From Haladaptatus sp. R4 (GTDB taxonomy: Archaea; Halobacteriota; Halobacteria; Halobacteriales; Haladaptataceae), in contig NZ_LWHG01000007.1 of assembly GCF_001625445.1 (NCBI RefSeq), positions 1 to 56,836 on the forward strand: a stretch of 56,836 nucleotides of DNA, written 5' to 3'. The notes under the pieces were generated by a model. It did not search any database, was not told where the DNA came from, and was given only the letters and a program-made list of their open reading frames with translations. The position numbers were made by a program, and so were the translations under genes. Below, piece by piece: positions 10,829-53,655 of this stretch (the stretch's first letter is position 1; the number at the start of each line of letters is the position of its first letter).

Positions 10829-11743
10829 CTACCAGTCCTCCCACATCCGATGCAGACGTGCAATCATTGTCTCGGCGGAGTCGGTGTTCCACTGCGTGTT
10901 GTTGTCCCCGAATATCGGTTCCATTTCCGAAACCTGATCAAACGTCGTCAGGTCTATCTCGTCATCGTCCAAATGGTCGAGGACCTCAATGAACCGGTCA
11001 CTCATGTTTGACCGCTTGAGGATGCGCTGAGGGACATTGTAGATCAGGCACTCGATGAAGTATGACGGCGCATCAATCGACCATAGCGAGTCCCAGTGGT
11101 CGTTGTAGTAGTCCCGCGCGTTTTTGAAGATCCGGACTGTCTCCTTGTAGTTCGAGTGTTTATCGCAACCGTTCTCATGGTGGAGCTTAGGGAAATTGAT
11201 GATGCGGTCGGTGCCGTAGAGTGGCATAAAGTGCATCCCTTCGTCGTATTCCGCATCTTCGTTGCCACCTTCAGGATACGTATGGTAGACACGATATTCG
11301 CCGCACGCGACTACATCAACATCGACGTCGAGTTGTGAGGTCTCTTCTTCATCGATTTTAATCGCTTTATTCCCTCGGCTCACAGCAGACGGGTTGAACT
11401 TCGTTTGGAGTGCCCGCCGAACGTCGTCGTAGAAATCCTCACGGCCGTAGTCAGGATCACCATGATCGTCCTGATAACGCTCCTCTTCTTCATCGGTGAG
11501 ATTGCTGCGGTCGGAATGCCACACGCTGGTGATTTTCGTAACTACGTCGATGTCACTTGATGACCGTGTATGAGTCGTATTTCTGTACGACCCTTGCAGG
11601 TATACCTCGTATTCTTCATCGCCTTGTTCGAGCGGTGACCGCTCGGTCATGAGCGCAGTCTTCACCTTCTTGCGTGCATCAGCCGATCCTTTGTCTGCTC
11701 CTGTGCTGTTCCAATCGCCGAACTTACTCTCGGGGATCGCCAT
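10829..11743 (-). CDS. CBASS cyclic-oligonucleotide synthase (CD-NTase)
   Basis: CD-NTases make a cyclic di- or trinucleotide signal after sensing infection. The 304-residue product carries the nucleotidyltransferase signature LQGSYRNTT with Gly51-Ser52, the metal-binding SDIDVV at about residues 64-66, and a third acidic strand, QLDVDVDVVAC, near 138-146. These are the cGAS/DncV-like active-site residues, in the right order. The closely following membrane effector supports a CBASS role over a tRNA or antibiotic nucleotidyltransferase. The start ATG has a purine-rich GGGGGTGGG upstream. Which nucleotide it makes cannot be told from sequence. Confidence 0.85.
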   Translation of the reverse strand: MAIPESKFGDWNSTGADKGSADARKKVKTALMTERSPLEQGDEEYEVYLQGSYRNTTHTRSSSDIDVVTKITSVWHSDRSNLTDEEEERYQDDHGDPDYGREDFYDDVRRALQTKFNPSAVSRGNKAIKIDEEETSQLDVDVDVVACGEYRVYHTYPEGGNEDAEYDEGMHFMPLYGTDRIINFPKLHHENGCDKHSNYKETVRIFKNARDYYNDHWDSLWSIDAPSYFIECLIYNVPQRILKRSNMSDRFIEVLDHLDDDEIDLTTFDQVSEMEPIFGDNNTQWNTDSAETMIARLHRMWEDW

Positions 11744-12223
11744 CTATCGACCCACCCCCAGTGATTCGGCGGTAGTCTTCGTGTACTGTTCAAATTCGTT
11801 CGTTAGTTGCGTTCTCGACATAACTTCCGTAAATTACTGCGATTTATTTCGCCTGAACATCGAAGCAAATATATGGTGCCGACTCTATTCTCAAAGAGAG
11901 GTTTGCGGAAACCTGTACGCTCAATGTGCAGGGTTGGGCACCACCGCGCCCACGGTGTTGCCCCTAATTCACTTCCCCAACTTCTATTCATTAGTCAATC
12001 ACATGTTTCTCAATATACGGGCGCGCGTATTAAATGGTAACATCTCTTACCAATTTAATTTGAATTTTTCGATTTGCTTGATTTGATTGATTTAGAGTAT
12101 AAAAAAGATTGAACGGATCTTGTCGATTATACCGGTTGAATCTCAGACTAGATCGGTTCCTCTGGCTTCTTGAGCCAACTATTCACCACAATGTACTTAG
12201 TCCTTCGCAAACTGGTTAACTAT
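11744..12223. promoter_or_regulatory. divergent intergenic region with hairpin
   Basis: This 480-base gap separates the divergent CBASS operon and CARF regulator gene. A strong imperfect hairpin lies at 11936-11963: GGGCACCACCG and CGGTGTTGCCC pair with one mismatch around a 6-nt loop. TATAAAAAAG near 12098-12107 could be the TATA element for the plus-strand gene. The region 12020-12110 is AT-rich. I see no coding sequence; the hairpin could end a short RNA or be a remnant. Confidence 0.45.
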
Positions 12224-13027
12224 ATGACTGCTTCCTATTCCGAACGGATTTACATCGCCCCTCAAGGCTACGAAGATGAGCGAATCTATTGTCCAGCAAT
12301 CGGTCTTAATGCAGAAAAGGTGATTCTTCTCACCCATACTGGAAACGAAGGAGATAGTAGGGCGAACCGCTGTCAAGAACGTGTTGAAGAAAAACTCGAA
12401 GAAGAAAGCATAGAAATCGAGAATTTTGACTGTGATATATTCGACCCAATAGACGCGCTTAAGGCCTTCATGACCTGTATTCGTAGGATTGAGCCGAATG
12501 CGGATGTTATCGTTAATGTTTCATCAGGTTCGAAAATAACCGCAATTGCCGGTATGATGGCCTGCATGTTTACCGAAGCTGATCCAATGTACGTGCGGCC
12601 GGAAGGATACGGAAGTAGGGAAACAGCAGAAGGGAGAATGGGGGACAGCGATGCGGTTAGTTATGGAATGAAAGAAATGGTGGACCTTCCTGCATACCCC
12701 GTCACGGAACCGGATTACGAATTCATTCAGGTTCTCGCATATATATCTGATAACCAGCCAGGTTCAGGGATTAAGGGCGTAATCATCAAAGAGATTGGGG
12801 GATTTTTACTTGAGAATGATTTTTCTGCGGTTGAAACCAGTAATGCTGAAGATCCTGAGAAAATCTATCCGCTTGTAAATAGGAAAATAATTGAGCCCTT
12901 ATACAGTCAGGGCTTAATCGATAAACAGAGATTTGAGAAGAGCATTCATATTCGGACGACCCGGAACGGTGAACGAATGCTCGAATTAGGTAGGAGTCTA
13001 ATCAGTGACGAGGGGGACGTAATATAA
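12224..13027 (+). CDS. CARF-domain winged-helix regulator (Csa3/DUF6293-like)
   Basis: The product (267 residues from the ATG at 12224; a TTG at 12170 is a less likely start) has an N-terminal Rossmann-like CARF domain: ERIYIAPQGYEDERIYCPAI, the strand KVILLTH, and the ligand-loop motif VIVNVSSGSKITAIAGMMA. CARF domains bind cyclic oligoadenylates or related nucleotides. The C-terminal third (DYEFIQVLAYISDN to the end) looks like a winged helix. Such proteins regulate cas or stress genes. Here it stands divergent to a CD-NTase and next to cas6, so it could respond to the CBASS signal; that link is inference. A DUF6293 regulator unrelated to immunity is the alternative. Confidence 0.75.
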   Translation: MTASYSERIYIAPQGYEDERIYCPAIGLNAEKVILLTHTGNEGDSRANRCQERVEEKLEEESIEIENFDCDIFDPIDALKAFMTCIRRIEPNADVIVNVSSGSKITAIAGMMACMFTEADPMYVRPEGYGSRETAEGRMGDSDAVSYGMKEMVDLPAYPVTEPDYEFIQVLAYISDNQPGSGIKGVIIKEIGGFLLENDFSAVETSNAEDPEKIYPLVNRKIIEPLYSQGLIDKQRFEKSIHIRTTRNGERMLELGRSLISDEGDVI

Positions 13028-30603: not shown

Positions 30604-30678
30604 GTCCTACGGATTGCACACAGATCGGTTCGGGGGTCCCGAGGGCTGGTTACTTCCACTTATGGAATTAACCGGCAG
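30604..30678 (-). repeat. dispersed 70-nt repeat, copy 1
   Basis: Read on the minus strand, this stretch matches 48074-48149 and 53371-53441. Shared landmarks are CTGCC, an ATAAG.GGAAGTAACCA-like segment, CGGGACCCCC and a TCTGTGTGCA segment. The GTTAATTCC/GGAAGTAAC portion forms an imperfect hairpin. The repeat has no coding frame in common between copies at the expected codon spacing and is more likely a small mobile or recombination element. Confidence 0.7.
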
Positions 30679-47814: not shown

Positions 47815-48194
47815 GAAGATGTGCATTCTATAGTGGGTTCGGGAGTTAGATTGCTAACGAGAGTGAACATTGAAACCGGAGTTTGAAGCACTTACAGCAG
47901 GTGAATTGGCTAAAATCGTGTGTTTTGGGCTCTCTATATTGGGTGTAGTCTCATCTTCCAGGGAGATGAATTTGATGTAGCGATATACAATTTATAAACA
48001 TGAGGATAGCTGCTATCGGGAAATAGGGGCCTTGTGTCGGGAGATTACACGGGAAGTGGTGGTGTGTTGGGTACTGCCGGTTACTTTCATAAGCGGAAGT
48101 AACCAACCCCCGGGACCCCCGAATCGATCTGTGTGCAGTTCGTAGTGCTAACTTAGGGGAGGAGGAAAACACAACGAGAAACCTAGGCAATATC
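47815..48194. other. 380-base gap containing dispersed repeat copy 2
   Basis: No gene is seen. The dispersed 70-nt repeat (48074-48149) occupies the centre and marks the left edge of the low-GC secretion island. Confidence 0.4.
48074..48149 (+). repeat. dispersed 70-nt repeat, copy 2
   Basis: CTGCCGGTTACTTTCATAAG continues with a GGAAGTAACC arm that pairs with GGTTACTT (8 bp, 10-nt loop), then CCCCCGGGACCCCC and a TCTGTGTGCAGTTCG tail. Copy 3 at 53371 has the same orientation; copy 1 at 30604 is inverted. Confidence 0.75.
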
Positions 48195-48536
48195 TCAGAT
48201 GACGATGATGGTCGCAGTGAGGCTCCAGAGGACAATGCCGAGGAGGTAGAATGTGAGGATCGCTCGATTGTTCGTAGGAAGTGATGATCCGATGTGCAGC
48301 TGTGATGGTGCGGCGTCCATTTCTAGGTAGTCGCCTTGTTCACCACCTCCCCCACCTTCCATCGCCATGGTTGGGCCGCTTCCAGTCTGTGCATGAAGAA
48401 GGGCAAACACAAACAGGGACACGATTAGTAGGAGGAAGACGGCTTCACCATAGAAATACGCGAGTGGGACGACCGTTACACCTGCTGCAATGACGGTATA
48501 TGCGAGGAGAGCTGAGGCGAGCGTATTTCGTTCCAT
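48195..48536 (-). CDS. small membrane protein, three TM segments
   Basis: The 113-residue product has TM segments LASALLAYTVIAAGVTVVPL, AVFLLLIVSLFVFALLHA and ILTFYLLGIVLWSLTATIIV, separated by a polar Gly-rich loop (MEGGGGGEQGDYLEMD). I do not recognise the family. It stands 100 bases from the next lipoprotein gene on the same strand. Confidence 0.6.
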   Translation of the reverse strand: MERNTLASALLAYTVIAAGVTVVPLAYFYGEAVFLLLIVSLFVFALLHAQTGSGPTMAMEGGGGGEQGDYLEMDAAPSQLHIGSSLPTNNRAILTFYLLGIVLWSLTATIIVI

Positions 48537-48636
48537 AGTTCAATGCAGTGAGTTGTGGAGTTATGAGTTTGGGGAGTCATTAACTCTACTGCTATTGGCT
48601 AGGTCCCTGAGCAGTCATCCGTTCAGGAAACTCACG

Positions 48637-49467
48637 TTAGCTATTAGTGGTCTGCTGGGTCGTATTTGTAACTGCGGCAGTATACCATGCTGGTTTTGAG
48701 ATTTGTGTCTCACCGATCGCCGAGTAATTCGCCGACTCTTGGATATGAACAGTTGACTGATTGTATTTCCCTGTTCCACTGAATGAATAGCGGTGGATGA
48801 TGCCCCATGCGTCGATGATAGCAGTGAACGAGCCATTTGTGACTTTTACTGGCCGAAAGGAGCTTTCTAAAGACGTTGAATCGCTCAAATTGCTCGAATG
48901 CAAGCGATATAGAGGGGGACCTGAACCGGAATCGTTGACCTTTTTAATCGAATGGATTGTAGACGTAGTAATGAAAAGATAGAGTCGATCGGTATTTATC
49001 AGTGGTCGTACTATACTAGGCCTATCTGTGGTTAGGTAAAAACGCCGATTTCCATTGAGAACTATTTTACTATGTGTTTGGTTACCGTTTGACCAGTAAC
49101 TAGTCTTTCCTTGTGTTGCATCAAATAGAACCTGAATTTGGCCTGCATACGTTGTGTTAGCGAGAAAATGAGTGTTGTTGTGCGTCGCTTGGATTGTAGT
49201 GGACTTGTGGCGTAAGAGTGTTCCATTCGTATAGCGTAGATTAAGAGTTTGATGATACGTGAATGTTTCCTCAGTGAGGATTCGAGCGTGTGCGCTCGTG
49301 AGTTCCTCGGCGCTCGTAATCCCTTCAGCTGTCACCCCTGGAGCGAGTGTTCCAGAAAGGGTAGTGGTTGATTCGGACTGGGTTGGGGAGGTAGCAGGTG
49401 AAAAGAAGCTGTTACAGCCAGCGGTGAGGATGATGAGCAAGCAACCAAGATAGACGATTCGGCGCAT
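48637..49467 (-). CDS. secreted lipoprotein (DUF7537-like)
   Basis: The 276-residue product has a Sec-type lipobox signal, RRIVYLGCLLIILTAGCNSF, then a Ser/Thr-rich linker and a beta-rich domain with many Asn-x-Ser/Thr sites (LRYTNGTLLRH, YWSNGNQTHSK, SANYSAIGE). Haloarchaea have many such lipoproteins with an LTSAHARILTEETFTY-type opening of unknown function. It should be anchored to the outer face of the membrane. Confidence 0.7.
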   Translation of the reverse strand: MRRIVYLGCLLIILTAGCNSFFSPATSPTQSESTTTLSGTLAPGVTAEGITSAEELTSAHARILTEETFTYHQTLNLRYTNGTLLRHKSTTIQATHNNTHFLANTTYAGQIQVLFDATQGKTSYWSNGNQTHSKIVLNGNRRFYLTTDRPSIVRPLINTDRLYLFITTSTIHSIKKVNDSGSGPPLYRLHSSNLSDSTSLESSFRPVKVTNGSFTAIIDAWGIIHRYSFSGTGKYNQSTVHIQESANYSAIGETQISKPAWYTAAVTNTTQQTTNS

Positions 49468-49764
49468 TGTTATTTGTTTTTAATACACCAAAATAAAGGT
49501 ATTGGTGCATTAATATATGTAGATACAAATATGTGGTGAAAAAACTCGCTCTAATTCTTTTAAACTAAAAAACTTTGACTAAAAAGACTGGTGACTGTGG
49601 GACATCTATCTCCATGATTTATTGATCTTGGCATTGGATCGGTGCATAGAAAAAATGAATTTAGAAATATTCAATATTCACGCTATTCTAAGCATTAGTT
49701 AGTACATGATACAAAGTGAAAAAATTAGATTCGTAGCAAGGAAATTTATATAGGACGTTGGATC

Positions 49765-50058
49765 ATGGATACTATGATGATCTCTAAACAGTTGATTTTA
49801 TTATTTTTTGCCATATCCATATCTTTCATATATTCGACACGTAATGATAAAACGTGGCGAATACTTGGGTTACTTTGTACCATGTCTGGATTTACTATCG
49901 TCTATGTGGATTATTTAGCCGGTCAAATTTTACCCACATATCTTTTAGTGATAATTGTTGGGTCTTTCAACATTTCATTAGCCAGTGGGTTATTTATATC
50001 TTATTTAAATAGGAAGAAAAATCTCCGAAGACAACAAATGTTTGACAAATCTGATTAG
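49765..50058 (+). CDS. small low-GC membrane protein
   Basis: The 97-residue product has three hydrophobic segments (KQLILLFFAISISFIYST, WRILGLLCTMSGFTIVYVDY and YLLVIIVGSFNISLASGLFI) and a basic tail (NRKKNLRRQQMF). Base composition is far more AT-rich than the plasmid core. The neighbouring halocin-like gene is convergent with it, so it might be an immunity or transport helper; no family is recognised. Confidence 0.55.
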   Translation: MDTMMISKQLILLFFAISISFIYSTRNDKTWRILGLLCTMSGFTIVYVDYLAGQILPTYLLVIIVGSFNISLASGLFISYLNRKKNLRRQQMFDKSD

Positions 50059-50435
50059 TAATATTCAGATCTGTGTTTGATACCTTCCCAGACATATTAA
50101 AGCATATTGACTTGTTATGAATTAAAATATGATTTAATACACTGTTTAGTAAAACTCCTCTTTACTGCCCACGATATCTACTATATTATAAAAATTTGTT
50201 TAGGTATTATTTGGTAGATTATATGTATATAATGGAAATCATATGTGATTAACATATGATGGCCCAACTTTAGAGTGAATCCTCATAGAATATATAGTGT
50301 ATCAATTGGTTGTTCGAAGAACAGATTATACAATGCGATAGAAATTGGATACTATGACGAAAGTGGGGCTGTGGTAATATATGCTAGTGTCTATCAATAA
50401 AATCTTATAGTATAAGATAGATTTGACGAGTTCAA
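50059..50435. other. AT-rich gap with 17-bp palindrome
   Basis: No gene is seen. ATCTTATA-G-TATAAGAT (50402-50418) is a perfect palindrome 18 bases downstream of the halocin-like gene stop and may end its transcript. Confidence 0.45.
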
Positions 50436-51317
50436 CTAACAAGTAGGTGAATAACAGCAATTACTACAACCAGTGCCAGAACTACAACTAAACGAGTCAG
50501 GTCTGCAACCTGGGGGGTGTGTACATTGATAATCTCCACAGACCTCACAGCACCGATCTTGCGAACCACAACAACAACAACCACCACAGCAGATGCTACC
50601 GGTACAATCGTATAGGGTACATGATTCACCAAGACATTCTCCTTCCCAAGAATAGCACCTGTATGCACCACAACCGGAATCTCCACGGTTTCTACACAAG
50701 TATATTATCATTCCTTGGGGTGATATATATCCCTGTGATGTTGACAATTTTTCTGCCTCATTTAAATCCAACTCTTTTGGACGTTGAGGAACTATTGTTT
50801 TTGTATCTTTCTTCAAATCACCTTTTTCTACAATATATCGGGACGACTGAATAGATGAACCGCCTGTTTCTGGGACTTTTTTCCGAAGAAGTGCTCGTGG
50901 TTTTGTATCAGAACGATCTGGATTAAAAGCGATTACTAATTTACCAGCAGGAATTTTCCGACGGATTGTAACGTGAGCAGTTGGTTTGTCATCTGCGGGG
51001 TGGCTTACGCCCCAGACACGTGCACCATTATCACTTGCTAAATACTCATCAGTACATAGTAAATTATTTACTTCCAAATCATCTTTCTGGAGAATATTAT
51101 CTTGTTCAAGTGTTTGGAACAGTTGTGGGCTATCCTTTATCAATGTCTGTACTGTAGAAACTGATTCATATTTATCACGTATCTCATTTAGTTGTTCAAA
51201 CCCGTCCTTTTCCGATTCAGCGCTAACTGGCTGGATTATTGAACCAGCTGATGCTGAAGCTGCGATACCGGCCATCAAACTTCTTCTATTGACTCCACCA
51301 TTACTGTTTCTCTTCAT
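50436..51317 (-). CDS. Cys-rich halocin-like peptide precursor (halocin C8-type build)
   Basis: From the ATG at 51317 (a TTG at 51323 is the alternative) the 293-residue product has a Tat-like signal (NRRSLMAGIAASASAGSIIQ), a helical middle part of about 180 residues, and a C-terminal 86-residue segment with 22 cysteines, including ICCGGCCCCG and CSNCC. Halocin C8 is made as a Tat-exported precursor with an N-terminal immunity part and a C-terminal Cys-rich peptide of similar size; here the Cys content is about twice as high and the sequence differs. This suggests a new secreted antimicrobial or metal-binding peptide. Membrane and Tat-secreted partners lie next to it in the same low-GC island. 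Confidence 0.65.
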   Translation of the reverse strand: MKRNSNGGVNRRSLMAGIAASASAGSIIQPVSAESEKDGFEQLNEIRDKYESVSTVQTLIKDSPQLFQTLEQDNILQKDDLEVNNLLCTDEYLASDNGARVWGVSHPADDKPTAHVTIRRKIPAGKLVIAFNPDRSDTKPRALLRKKVPETGGSSIQSSRYIVEKGDLKKDTKTIVPQRPKELDLNEAEKLSTSQGYISPQGMIIYLCRNRGDSGCGAYRCYSWEGECLGESCTLYDCTGSICCGGCCCCGSQDRCCEVCGDYQCTHPPGCRPDSFSCSSGTGCSNCCYSPTC

Positions 51318-51323
51318 GGGCAA

Positions 51324-51760
51324 TTATATATTAACTACATCTAATAATAAATTTACTATTTCATAGGATTTATATGGTAATAATTCTCTATTGGAAACAA
51401 CAGATGGTAGGTACTGTCTAGTCAATGGTTTCACACCTCCATAACCAGCTTTCATCCGTCGAACACTTGATCTGGTCGCTAGGAATTATACTAGTAGGTG
51501 AATACGCTGATACAGTGCTCGTTGACTGACGCGACTAGCTCAATGTCAGCTCTGACGTGGATTGCTTGCGGATAAGCTTTCTGGTCTGTCCAAATGTGTT
51601 AAGTCGAGTACGCTTGCTCCACCGAATGCCCACTTATCCCGTGCGTTTGAAACAGGTACTTAGCGGTCTAGCAACCATTGAATCTTTTTTGTATAGATCA
51701 ACGGGTTCAACTATCCGAATTAAACAAACACTTTTTGCGATCGATGCACTATATCTAATT
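51324..51760. other. 437-base divergent promoter region
   Basis: This separates the divergent halocin-like gene and membrane protein gene. It is AT-rich near both ends, with TATA-like TATATTA at 51326-51332 for the minus-strand gene. The in-frame extension of the plus-strand gene back to 51557 has non-membrane, basic composition and is probably untranslated. Confidence 0.35.
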
Positions 51761-52222
51761 ATGTCCTCAGCTAACATGTCCCGCTTGGTGCTCGGCCACT
51801 ACTCTGATCAGCAAAAAATCCTTCGCGCTATTGCCTTCGTTATTGTAATTCTACTTGGGAGCTATGCTATTGTTAAAGGTGCTCAATCAATGAAAGTGTT
51901 TTACAAGATGACTGTTGATCTCGGTACTGGTGCAGTAGGACTAAACACGTGGTTTGAATTTTTCACCAAGGATGCGCCTCTCCTAACAATTGCTTTAATC
52001 TGTCTTGCTGCTGGTAACGCATATAGGGGCGGTGGCATCCTTATGAGTTGTGTACTAACAAGCGCCCTCATTATTGGAATGGTATTCGCTATTTTTGGCA
52101 ATCCACCAGTTATTATGAATGTTGCGGATATAGCGTATTTTGCTGCCCCTATCTATGGCATTCTTGGCTGGTTTCTTGGATATAGCATGCGAATTTTGCA
52201 ATCGCAATATACTAAAAATTGA
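51761..52222 (+). CDS. membrane protein, candidate immunity partner
   Basis: From the ATG at 51761 the 153-residue product has four TM segments: KILRAIAFVIVILLGSYAIV, DAPLLTIALICLAAGNAYRG, MSCVLTSALIIGMVFAIFGN and AYFAAPIYGILGWFLGYSMR. The family is not recognised. It is divergent to the halocin-like gene. Small multi-TM proteins are frequent bacteriocin immunity or export factors, so that role is suggested by context only. Confidence 0.55.
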   Translation: MSSANMSRLVLGHYSDQQKILRAIAFVIVILLGSYAIVKGAQSMKVFYKMTVDLGTGAVGLNTWFEFFTKDAPLLTIALICLAAGNAYRGGGILMSCVLTSALIIGMVFAIFGNPPVIMNVADIAYFAAPIYGILGWFLGYSMRILQSQYTKN

Positions 52223-52302
52223 TTTTCCTTGTAGGAAATTATATAAAATAGTTTAAGATAAATTTATTAATTTATACTACCATCAATTTCTTGGAGGAAA
52301 AC

Positions 52303-52977
52303 ATGATGGAAAAAAATCGAAGAACGTTCCTAAAGTCAGCCGTCGGGTCATCAATTGGATTGGGTACCATTTCCGCGTTCAGCGGTCAAGTAGAAGCAGC
52401 CAGAACAACATTAGAAGTTGGCCTTCATAAACCGGATATGTCTAACCCAACTACAGTAGATTATACTATAAAAGTAAATACTACAGATTGTCGGAAGGAG
52501 GGGAAGGCAGATAGTAACGACCATCTATCTAAAGATTATAATCAAGGAGAGACTACGATTCATGGCACGTTACAGCCTGGCTATTGGGACAGTTTCAGTC
52601 ATAATGGTTTAATAAACAAAGCTAGTTTTATTCCTCGCTCGAATACGTTAGAAGTACTAAAAATTAAACAAAGTGGGTACATAAGCCAAAATCCTGAGGG
52701 GGCAATGGATGTGACTAGTTATTCATCAGATTTCATCTCTACTTGTGAATTTTGGACATCTCTATGGGTGGCTGCAGGTGGCGATGGTACCATTGAAGAT
52801 GGCGTTGAACATGGAAATACACGAGACGCGGCACATGACAACTACGGACGTTCCAGAACTGTTGATGGCGGACATGACCATTTTGACATAACTGGTCAGT
52901 TCACAAAAATAAATATGACGTCTCCCTTGGGTAACAGTCCTCTTACTTTTACTGTTGATTGGGGAGAGCGATGGTGA
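52303..52977 (+). CDS. Tat-secreted protein of unknown function
   Basis: The ATG at 52303 follows a good GGAGG ribosome binding site. The 224-residue product has a twin-arginine signal, NRRTFLKSAVGSSIGLGTIS, with probable cleavage after VEA in SGQVEAARTT. The mature part is beta-rich and polar (TTVDYTIKVNTTDCRKEGKA, FTKINMTSPLGNSPLTFTVD). It lies 80 bases after the membrane protein gene on the same strand and may be a second secreted factor or a halocin accessory. Confidence 0.6.
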   Translation: MMEKNRRTFLKSAVGSSIGLGTISAFSGQVEAARTTLEVGLHKPDMSNPTTVDYTIKVNTTDCRKEGKADSNDHLSKDYNQGETTIHGTLQPGYWDSFSHNGLINKASFIPRSNTLEVLKIKQSGYISQNPEGAMDVTSYSSDFISTCEFWTSLWVAAGGDGTIEDGVEHGNTRDAAHDNYGRSRTVDGGHDHFDITGQFTKINMTSPLGNSPLTFTVDWGERW

Positions 52978-53655
52978 TAAAGTACGTCAGTATCTCGCAT
53001 CGTTGATGCTCGAAGCGAGTATTTGTAAATCACTTTTCTCTGTAGAATTAGTCTATTCCAGTCGGTTTTATAGACATATCACGCTCCAGTACCAATTGTA
53101 GCTCATCGGACTCATCCGTGCGTTGTGCGCGGATTGGGAATTCAATGCAGGTCTACTCGATATGCATAACAACTCGTGGGAGCCCATCATCACAATCAGA
53201 ACCTTAATTCGATCTCTGCGCACAACTGCTTAGTGCAATAGGTGGTAGTGAGACAAACGGGTCCCAATCAATCAAGCGGAGGTAGACCACCTCCGTGACC
53301 CTGCTGGATTCTGGGACCACAAAGGACGGTAAGTGGAGCAAAAACCCAAAGTAGGCTGACCGCCCTTCTACTGCCTGATTTGATAAGCGAAAGTAGACCA
53401 TCCCGGGACCCCCCTATCAATCTATGCACAGTTCGTGATGCGTATTTATTAGTGACCAGCTTCCGGGTTCTACCGTGACTGGGCCAAGAATTCTTCTGGT
53501 CAGGCATCTTCCCGGCTACATTGGGGGTCGGTGTGTCGGCTTCGTCGTACCCACGTCGAACCAACTTCGGGACGTGAGGCCAAAACACTGGGTCGCCATA
53601 CTTCCACCGCTTTCAGTACGTTGTGTAGATTATTCAGTCATCGAAGACCACCTGT
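52978..53655. other. 678-base gap with dispersed repeat copy 3
   Basis: No intact gene is seen. The gap holds copy 3 of the dispersed repeat (53371-53441), and a weak fourth copy may lie at 53273-53310 (AAGCGGAGGTAGACCACC-like). Open frames on both strands near 53268-53588 and 53475-53746 lack haloarchaeal residue use and are judged non-coding or remnant. Confidence 0.4.
53371..53441 (+). repeat. dispersed 70-nt repeat, copy 3
   Basis: CTGCCTGATTTGATAAGCGA, then AAGTAGACCATCCCGGGACC, then CCCCTATCAATCTATGCACA and GTTCGTGATGC follow the same order as copies at 30604-30678 and 48074-48149. It has the same orientation as copy 2, and the two bracket the 5.2-kb secretion island. Confidence 0.65.

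Follow-up and report, generated by a model that had tools for sequence, protein, structure and literature searches.

The locus considered here raises the question of what is achieved by an exported protein that ends in a dense block of cysteines, and of which neighbouring genes serve it. It lies in Haladaptatus sp. R4, on a whole assembly contig (G000:C7; NZ_LWHG01000007.1) of 56,836 nucleotides, which was analysed at its full length and is referred to below as the window. One gene there encodes a precursor of 293 amino acids (aa) with a signal for twin-arginine translocation (Tat), whose last 86 residues contain 22 cysteines (Cys). The initial annotation had described a halocin-like precursor, flanked by small membrane proteins and a second Tat-secreted protein in a repeat-framed mobile island of low guanine-plus-cytosine (GC) content, and the open reading frame (ORF), the membrane proteins and the second Tat-secreted protein are indeed all present as described (Table 1). 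Our reading, to which we attach a probability of about 0.5, is that the three genes of the segment 50436-52977 form a plasmid-borne cassette whose product is an exported, disulfide-rich, archaeocin-like peptide with membrane immunity. It is supported by the gene structure, the family membership, the parity of Cys numbers, the co-occurrence of the partner genes and the exchange of tails on a conserved N-domain; disulfide pairing, tail release, killing and immunity are its predicted elements, read from sequence.

The precursor belongs to a haloarchaeal superfamily whose members share the same layout, with a Tat signal, an alpha/beta domain of ~130 aa and a Cys-rich tail. Against profile A2, which comprises 23 proteins reached via weaker matches, the precursor (itself one of the 23 rows) gives an E value of 6e-51 over positions 1-213 of 217, and when used alone as the query it recovers independent relatives at E 5e-5. 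It thus combines a whole-length A2 match with an even number of tail Cys, the two features by which membership was judged. The superfamily occurs in at least about 40 of 391 sampled haloarchaeal genomes, as counted by hand from A2 matches with E < 1e-12 that extend far beyond the Tat signal, with seven candidates scored per genome; weaker A2 matches, often confined to the Tat signal, were left uncounted. Gene calls in the other genomes are ORF based. Tandem members occur in several genomes, and at least three more members are found in the window genome. The domain is absent from Pfam and NCBIfam, where the matches were limited to Tat models and a single weak one to DUF7776; searched against PDB, profiles A2 and A5 gave nothing other than Tat signals and weak noise. 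It is possible that some members of the superfamily have been predicted earlier.

In the 84 members that we collected, the tails are very varied in length and pattern and contain 4 to 22 Cys, the number being even in 83 of them (binomial p 4e-24, a value that overstates independence, as the members are related). The sole odd tail (L140) has 7 Cys, and one further Cys before the tail brings the mature count to 8. When one member per sequence cluster is taken, 14/14 tails are even (p 6e-5), and the tail Cys number ranges from 6 to 22 among the members of the largest cluster; as a control, 41/81 neighbouring proteins with at least four Cys have an even number. These counts bear on the proposal that the precursor is a metal- or thiol-binding exported protein resembling metallothionein, which the closely packed CC and CCCC runs of the window tail could suggest. 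A metallothionein or a protein with Cys4 metal sites would show no parity, or multiples of four, and the tails show neither, since among the even ones 38/83 are 2 mod 4 and 45/83 are 0 mod 4; that the former are about as common as the latter points to disulfide pairs and argues against Cys4 sites. The conserved cassette also lacks a metal-handling gene, and we regard metal binding as very unlikely.

Full-length relatives of the precursor, at 42-46% identity, occur in two further genomes, namely Halorussus litoreus (G162, on a contig matching HD8-51) and a congener of the window genome (G123). In all three proteins the number of tail Cys is even (22 in the window, 20 and 16 in the relatives), and the complete mature protein is odd owing to a single Cys in the N-domain, which gives the tail the appearance of a closed unit. 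From this contrast we infer that the 86-residue tail is an independent disulfide-bonded unit. Furthermore, between the window and Halorussus the tail is 61% identical and the N-domain 42%, which suggests that the tail is under constraint, and across probable orthologues the tail is mostly conserved as well as the N-domain, or better. Tandem paralogues differ from this pattern: in locus L045, their N-domains are 63% identical and the non-Cys residues of their tails 11%. The occurrence of unrelated tails on similar N-domains suggests that a conserved carrier is combined with interchangeable active tails.

The Halorussus litoreus precursor is accompanied by both partner genes, those for the divergent membrane protein, which there is tandemly duplicated, and the Tat protein, which lies directly downstream. 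In a class-wide profile search, the membrane protein was found in 2/391 genomes, in both adjoining the precursor; full-length matches to the Tat partner were confined to these two genomes, and G123, G356 and G361 gave weak ones. The chance that both of two random membrane-protein genomes would fall among the three precursor genomes is ~4e-5, with adjacency left uncounted. The membrane ORF could encode 221 aa, but its start is most likely the ATG at 51761, since only the part from there onwards is clearly conserved. In G123, both partners are missing, and downstream of the precursor lies a relative of the DUF7537 protein of the window. Opposite this precursor, a short membrane-like frame broken by TGA was read by eye (L003:2413-2710), and it is possible that it represents a decayed partner gene. 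Plasmid collections yielded neither the precursor nor the membrane protein, phage collections no Tat partner, and viral contigs no precursor; the weak matches of ~50 residues between the membrane protein and five viral contigs are probably due to chance.

According to the reading that we prefer, Tat would export the precursor, the alpha/beta domain would serve as the conserved carrier, and the 22-Cys tail would form about 11 disulfides and act as the active part outside the cell. Cleavage by an extracellular protease is a plausible route for release of the tail, by analogy with a haloarchaeal secreted precursor for which activation by extracellular proteases, from its own strain or a different one, has been shown (PMC12893001). 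That precursor, HFX_0892 (HmHapP) of Haloferax mediterranei, likewise is exported and releases an antagonistic peptide, but its activity resides in an N-terminal alpha-helical part, which is freed by halolysin (PMC12893001). Protection of the producer is most likely the task of the divergent membrane protein, the second Tat protein may assist outside the cell, and the likely role of the whole would be archaeocin-like inhibition of neighbouring haloarchaea, as for halocin C8 but from unrelated parts. Some results weigh against this picture. In each of the three related precursors, one Cys of the N-domain is left without a partner, neither a protease nor a processing site for release of the tail was identified, and AlphaFold gave a mean predicted local distance difference test score (pLDDT) of 34 for the precursor alone and 33 for the precursor with one relative. 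The partner profiles were each built from two sequences, so that distant partners could have been missed. Moreover, across the superfamily, membrane proteins make up 22% of nearest neighbours and 21% of those at distance 2, and no general rule of an adjacent membrane immunity gene was found.

With regard to mobility, the repeats of one CRISPR array appear to cross both contig ends (1-170 and 56264-56836), next to cas1, and the contig genes include ParA, Cdc6, TraG-like and cas; a circular plasmid of about 57 kb, with its own CRISPR-Cas system, is therefore probably represented here in full. The GC content of the cassette is far below that of its flanks in all three genomes (0.41 vs 0.53, 0.49 vs 0.67 and 0.38 vs 0.59), which points to horizontal acquisition. 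The idea of a low-GC mobile system holds as far as the plasmid-like contig and the GC content are concerned (0.413 for 48150-53441 and 0.532 for the remaining window), with the exception of a 113-aa membrane gene at 0.54, but the repeats are not supported as part of it. Two direct copies, 77% identical, do frame the region. However, they belong to an intergenic repeat of about 65 bases (TAAGCGGAAGTA...CCGGGACCCCCGAATCGATCTGTG), without a match in Rfam, whose core has five copies in the window genome (window 30619-30641, 48111-48133 and 53402-53448; also G000:C29 and C33) and more in many other Haladaptatus plasmids, to which the matches of a plasmid search were confined. Being dispersed across the genus, the repeat does not mark the ends of an island, and a repeat-bounded mobile island is not supported.

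An alternative is that the precursor is a disulfide-rich surface or matrix protein kept on the cell for adhesion, envelope stability or protease inhibition. The protein is exported, and several superfamily members adjoin genes for surface-protein-like or DUF7537 lipoprotein products, which would suit such a role; the patchy distribution, plasmid carriage, low GC content and exchangeable tails suit it poorly, and sequence inspection found neither an anchor nor a transmembrane segment after the tail. We consider this explanation unlikely.

As for halocin C8, on which the initial annotation was modelled, the two-part layout stood and the kinship did not. Like halocin C8, the window protein combines Tat export with an N-domain followed by a Cys-rich C-terminal part, and both occur on haloarchaeal plasmids; different from it, the tail has 22 Cys instead of 10, and a separate dedicated membrane gene lies next door. 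The records retrieved with a halocin C8 query are annotated as halocin C8-like and match the curated models (TIGR04449, the halocin C8-like C-terminal domain, at E 1e-11 to 1e-12, and also PF22862, the halocin 8-like N-terminal domain). In contrast, TIGR04449 has no match in the precursor up to E 1 and none among the 23 superfamily proteins, PF22862 matches neither the precursor nor the superfamily proteins, and an hhalign comparison of the halocin C8 family with the superfamily profile aligned 24 columns, which cover only the Tat signal. Plasmid records likewise gave no match to the precursor. On sequence grounds, the analogy is one of layout only and the precursor is not a member of that family, so that even a divergent membership is extremely improbable.

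Clustering of the genes that neighbour superfamily members revealed partners specific to single clades. Genes for the ATPase and permease of an ABC-2-type ATP-binding cassette (ABC) transporter adjoin members in L047, L111, L113, L151, L157 and L160, and in L111 and L113 the precursor and the ATPase are on the same strand, about 15 bases apart. The L111 ATPase scores best with DrrA, and lantibiotic-protection models also score highly. Operon-like sets of precursor, ABC-2 ATPase and permease span L111:2998-5386, L113:1253-3657 and L047:294-2849; in this respect some clades resemble lantibiotic-protection or DrrA-like ABC-2 systems. The clade of the window differs in that it has no ABC pair and has its own polytopic membrane protein instead, and its tails would contain disulfides, not lanthionines. 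Near the superfamily member and the ABC-2 pair of L047 lies another Tat-exported precursor (L047:3422-4267), which has 10 Cys and differs in its N-part.

In seven further loci, members adjoin a family of ~287 residues with a DxxDD motif, whose profile matches nonaprenyl diphosphate synthase in PDB (E 1.8e-6); it follows that this family is trans-isoprenyl-synthase-like, as is ComQ. All characterised trans-IDS-like prenyltransferases act on Trp (PMC13290415), and 9/9 precursors beside a ComQ-like enzyme have a Trp within the last two residues, compared with 5/75 other members with a Trp within the last three (Fisher p 5e-9). One of these five, ending in GECGW, is in G208, whose genome has a ComQ-like enzyme elsewhere. 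The enzyme was found at 12 loci in 11/361 haloarchaeal genomes, whereas a census of 2014 placed ComQXPA-like loci in Firmicutes only (PMC4008528). Because of this clade, the strongest alternative to our reading is an exported peptide signal, in which the released tail would be sensed by kin as a pheromone and would not kill. The pairing with ComQ-like enzymes and the terminal Trp recall the ComQ-ComX pheromone of Bacillus (PMC4008528, PMC13290415), and the retention of tails by probable orthologues, together with their divergence among paralogues, is in keeping with a signal. The window clade, however, is not involved in this pairing: its tail ends in Cys, no ComQ-like gene was found in the window genome, and the cassette is not accompanied by any conserved sensor kinase or regulator; moreover, superfamily precursors differ from the ComQ-ComX system in being Tat exported and Cys rich. 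A signalling role for the window precursor is improbable, and membership in a ComQ-ComX system was rejected.

Beside ComQ-like genes (at most 20 bases away) in two genomes, we also noticed homologous ORFs of 34 residues (L187:4716-4820, ending in ...RDEEYAKLAPW, and L188:5992-6096, ending in ...RDEEYARLGVW), which are candidate archaeal ComX-like peptides. Another ComQ-like gene adjoins a Tat-exported protein of 232 residues with a hydrophobic Gly/Ala-rich core and the end ...NNSWI (L185:5048-5746), which resembles the Cys-rich superfamily only in its Tat signal.

It is possible to hypothesize, tentatively, that these genes represent an undescribed haloarchaeal superfamily in which a Tat-exported carrier bears exchangeable disulfide-rich tails and each clade has a dedicated partner, be it a unique membrane protein, an ABC-2 exporter or, for prenylation of the C-terminal Trp, a ComQ-like enzyme. 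If so, haloarchaea would possess a modular arsenal of exported peptides, including Trp-prenylated ones in archaea. Only a small number of peptide weapons or signals of archaea have known sequences, and a superfamily with disulfide-knotted-looking tails and clade-specific partners provides numerous candidates for testing. A further question is how such a large number of disulfides would be made in high salt, either ahead of Tat export or after it.

Table 1. Coordinates of the features discussed; positions without a locus prefix refer to the window
Feature	Position	Strand	Remarks
Precursor gene, 293 aa	50436..51317	-	ORF; ATG 51317, stop 50436
RR Tat signal of precursor	about 51219-51317	-	
Alpha/beta N-domain and linker of precursor	about 50697-51218	-	
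Cys-rich tail, 86 residues (208-293), 22 Cys	50439..50696	-	
Polytopic membrane protein, 153 aa	51761..52222	+	Divergent from precursor; ORF open from 51557; candidate immunity protein
Second Tat-exported protein, 224 aa	52303..52977	+	Putative accessory partner; GGAGG ribosome-binding site
DUF7537 protein, lipoprotein-like	48637..49467	-	Lipobox-like signal; possible association, unproven
Two-segment membrane ORF, 97 aa	49765..50058	+	GC 0.32
Membrane protein, 113 aa	48195..48536	-	Judged outside the system
Left copy of dispersed Haladaptatus repeat	48109..48155	+	
Right copy of dispersed Haladaptatus repeat	53402..53448	+	
ComQ-like gene	L109:3765-4628		Beside precursor
ComQ-like gene	L115:1914-2783		Beside precursor
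ComQ-like gene	L127:2036-2896		Beside precursor
ComQ-like gene	L130:3913-5067		Beside precursor
ComQ-like gene	L146:2074-2952		Beside precursor
ComQ-like gene	L148:3673-4524		Beside precursor
ComQ-like gene	L149:1879-2769		Beside precursor

DUF7537-type genes lie at most three genes from a superfamily member in 4 loci, that of G123 included, but they occur in several copies per genome. For the 97-aa membrane ORF, no convincing relatives were found beside other superfamily members. The 113-aa membrane gene was rejected as a partner and is probably unrelated to the precursor system, as an 84% identical copy is present at G000:C11, relatives occur elsewhere in the genus and its GC content sets it apart. 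In other loci, a surface/lipoprotein family lies directly beside five members (L141:1689-2999, L150:1504-2712, L159:3679-4869, L161:3787-5094 and L123:3708-4862), the L141 copy being related to Hvo_1808. Elsewhere in the window, a nucleotidyltransferase-domain protein and an HFX_2341-like sensor-regulator adjoin the cas genes (10829-13027) and could possibly constitute a nucleotide-signal defence pair.

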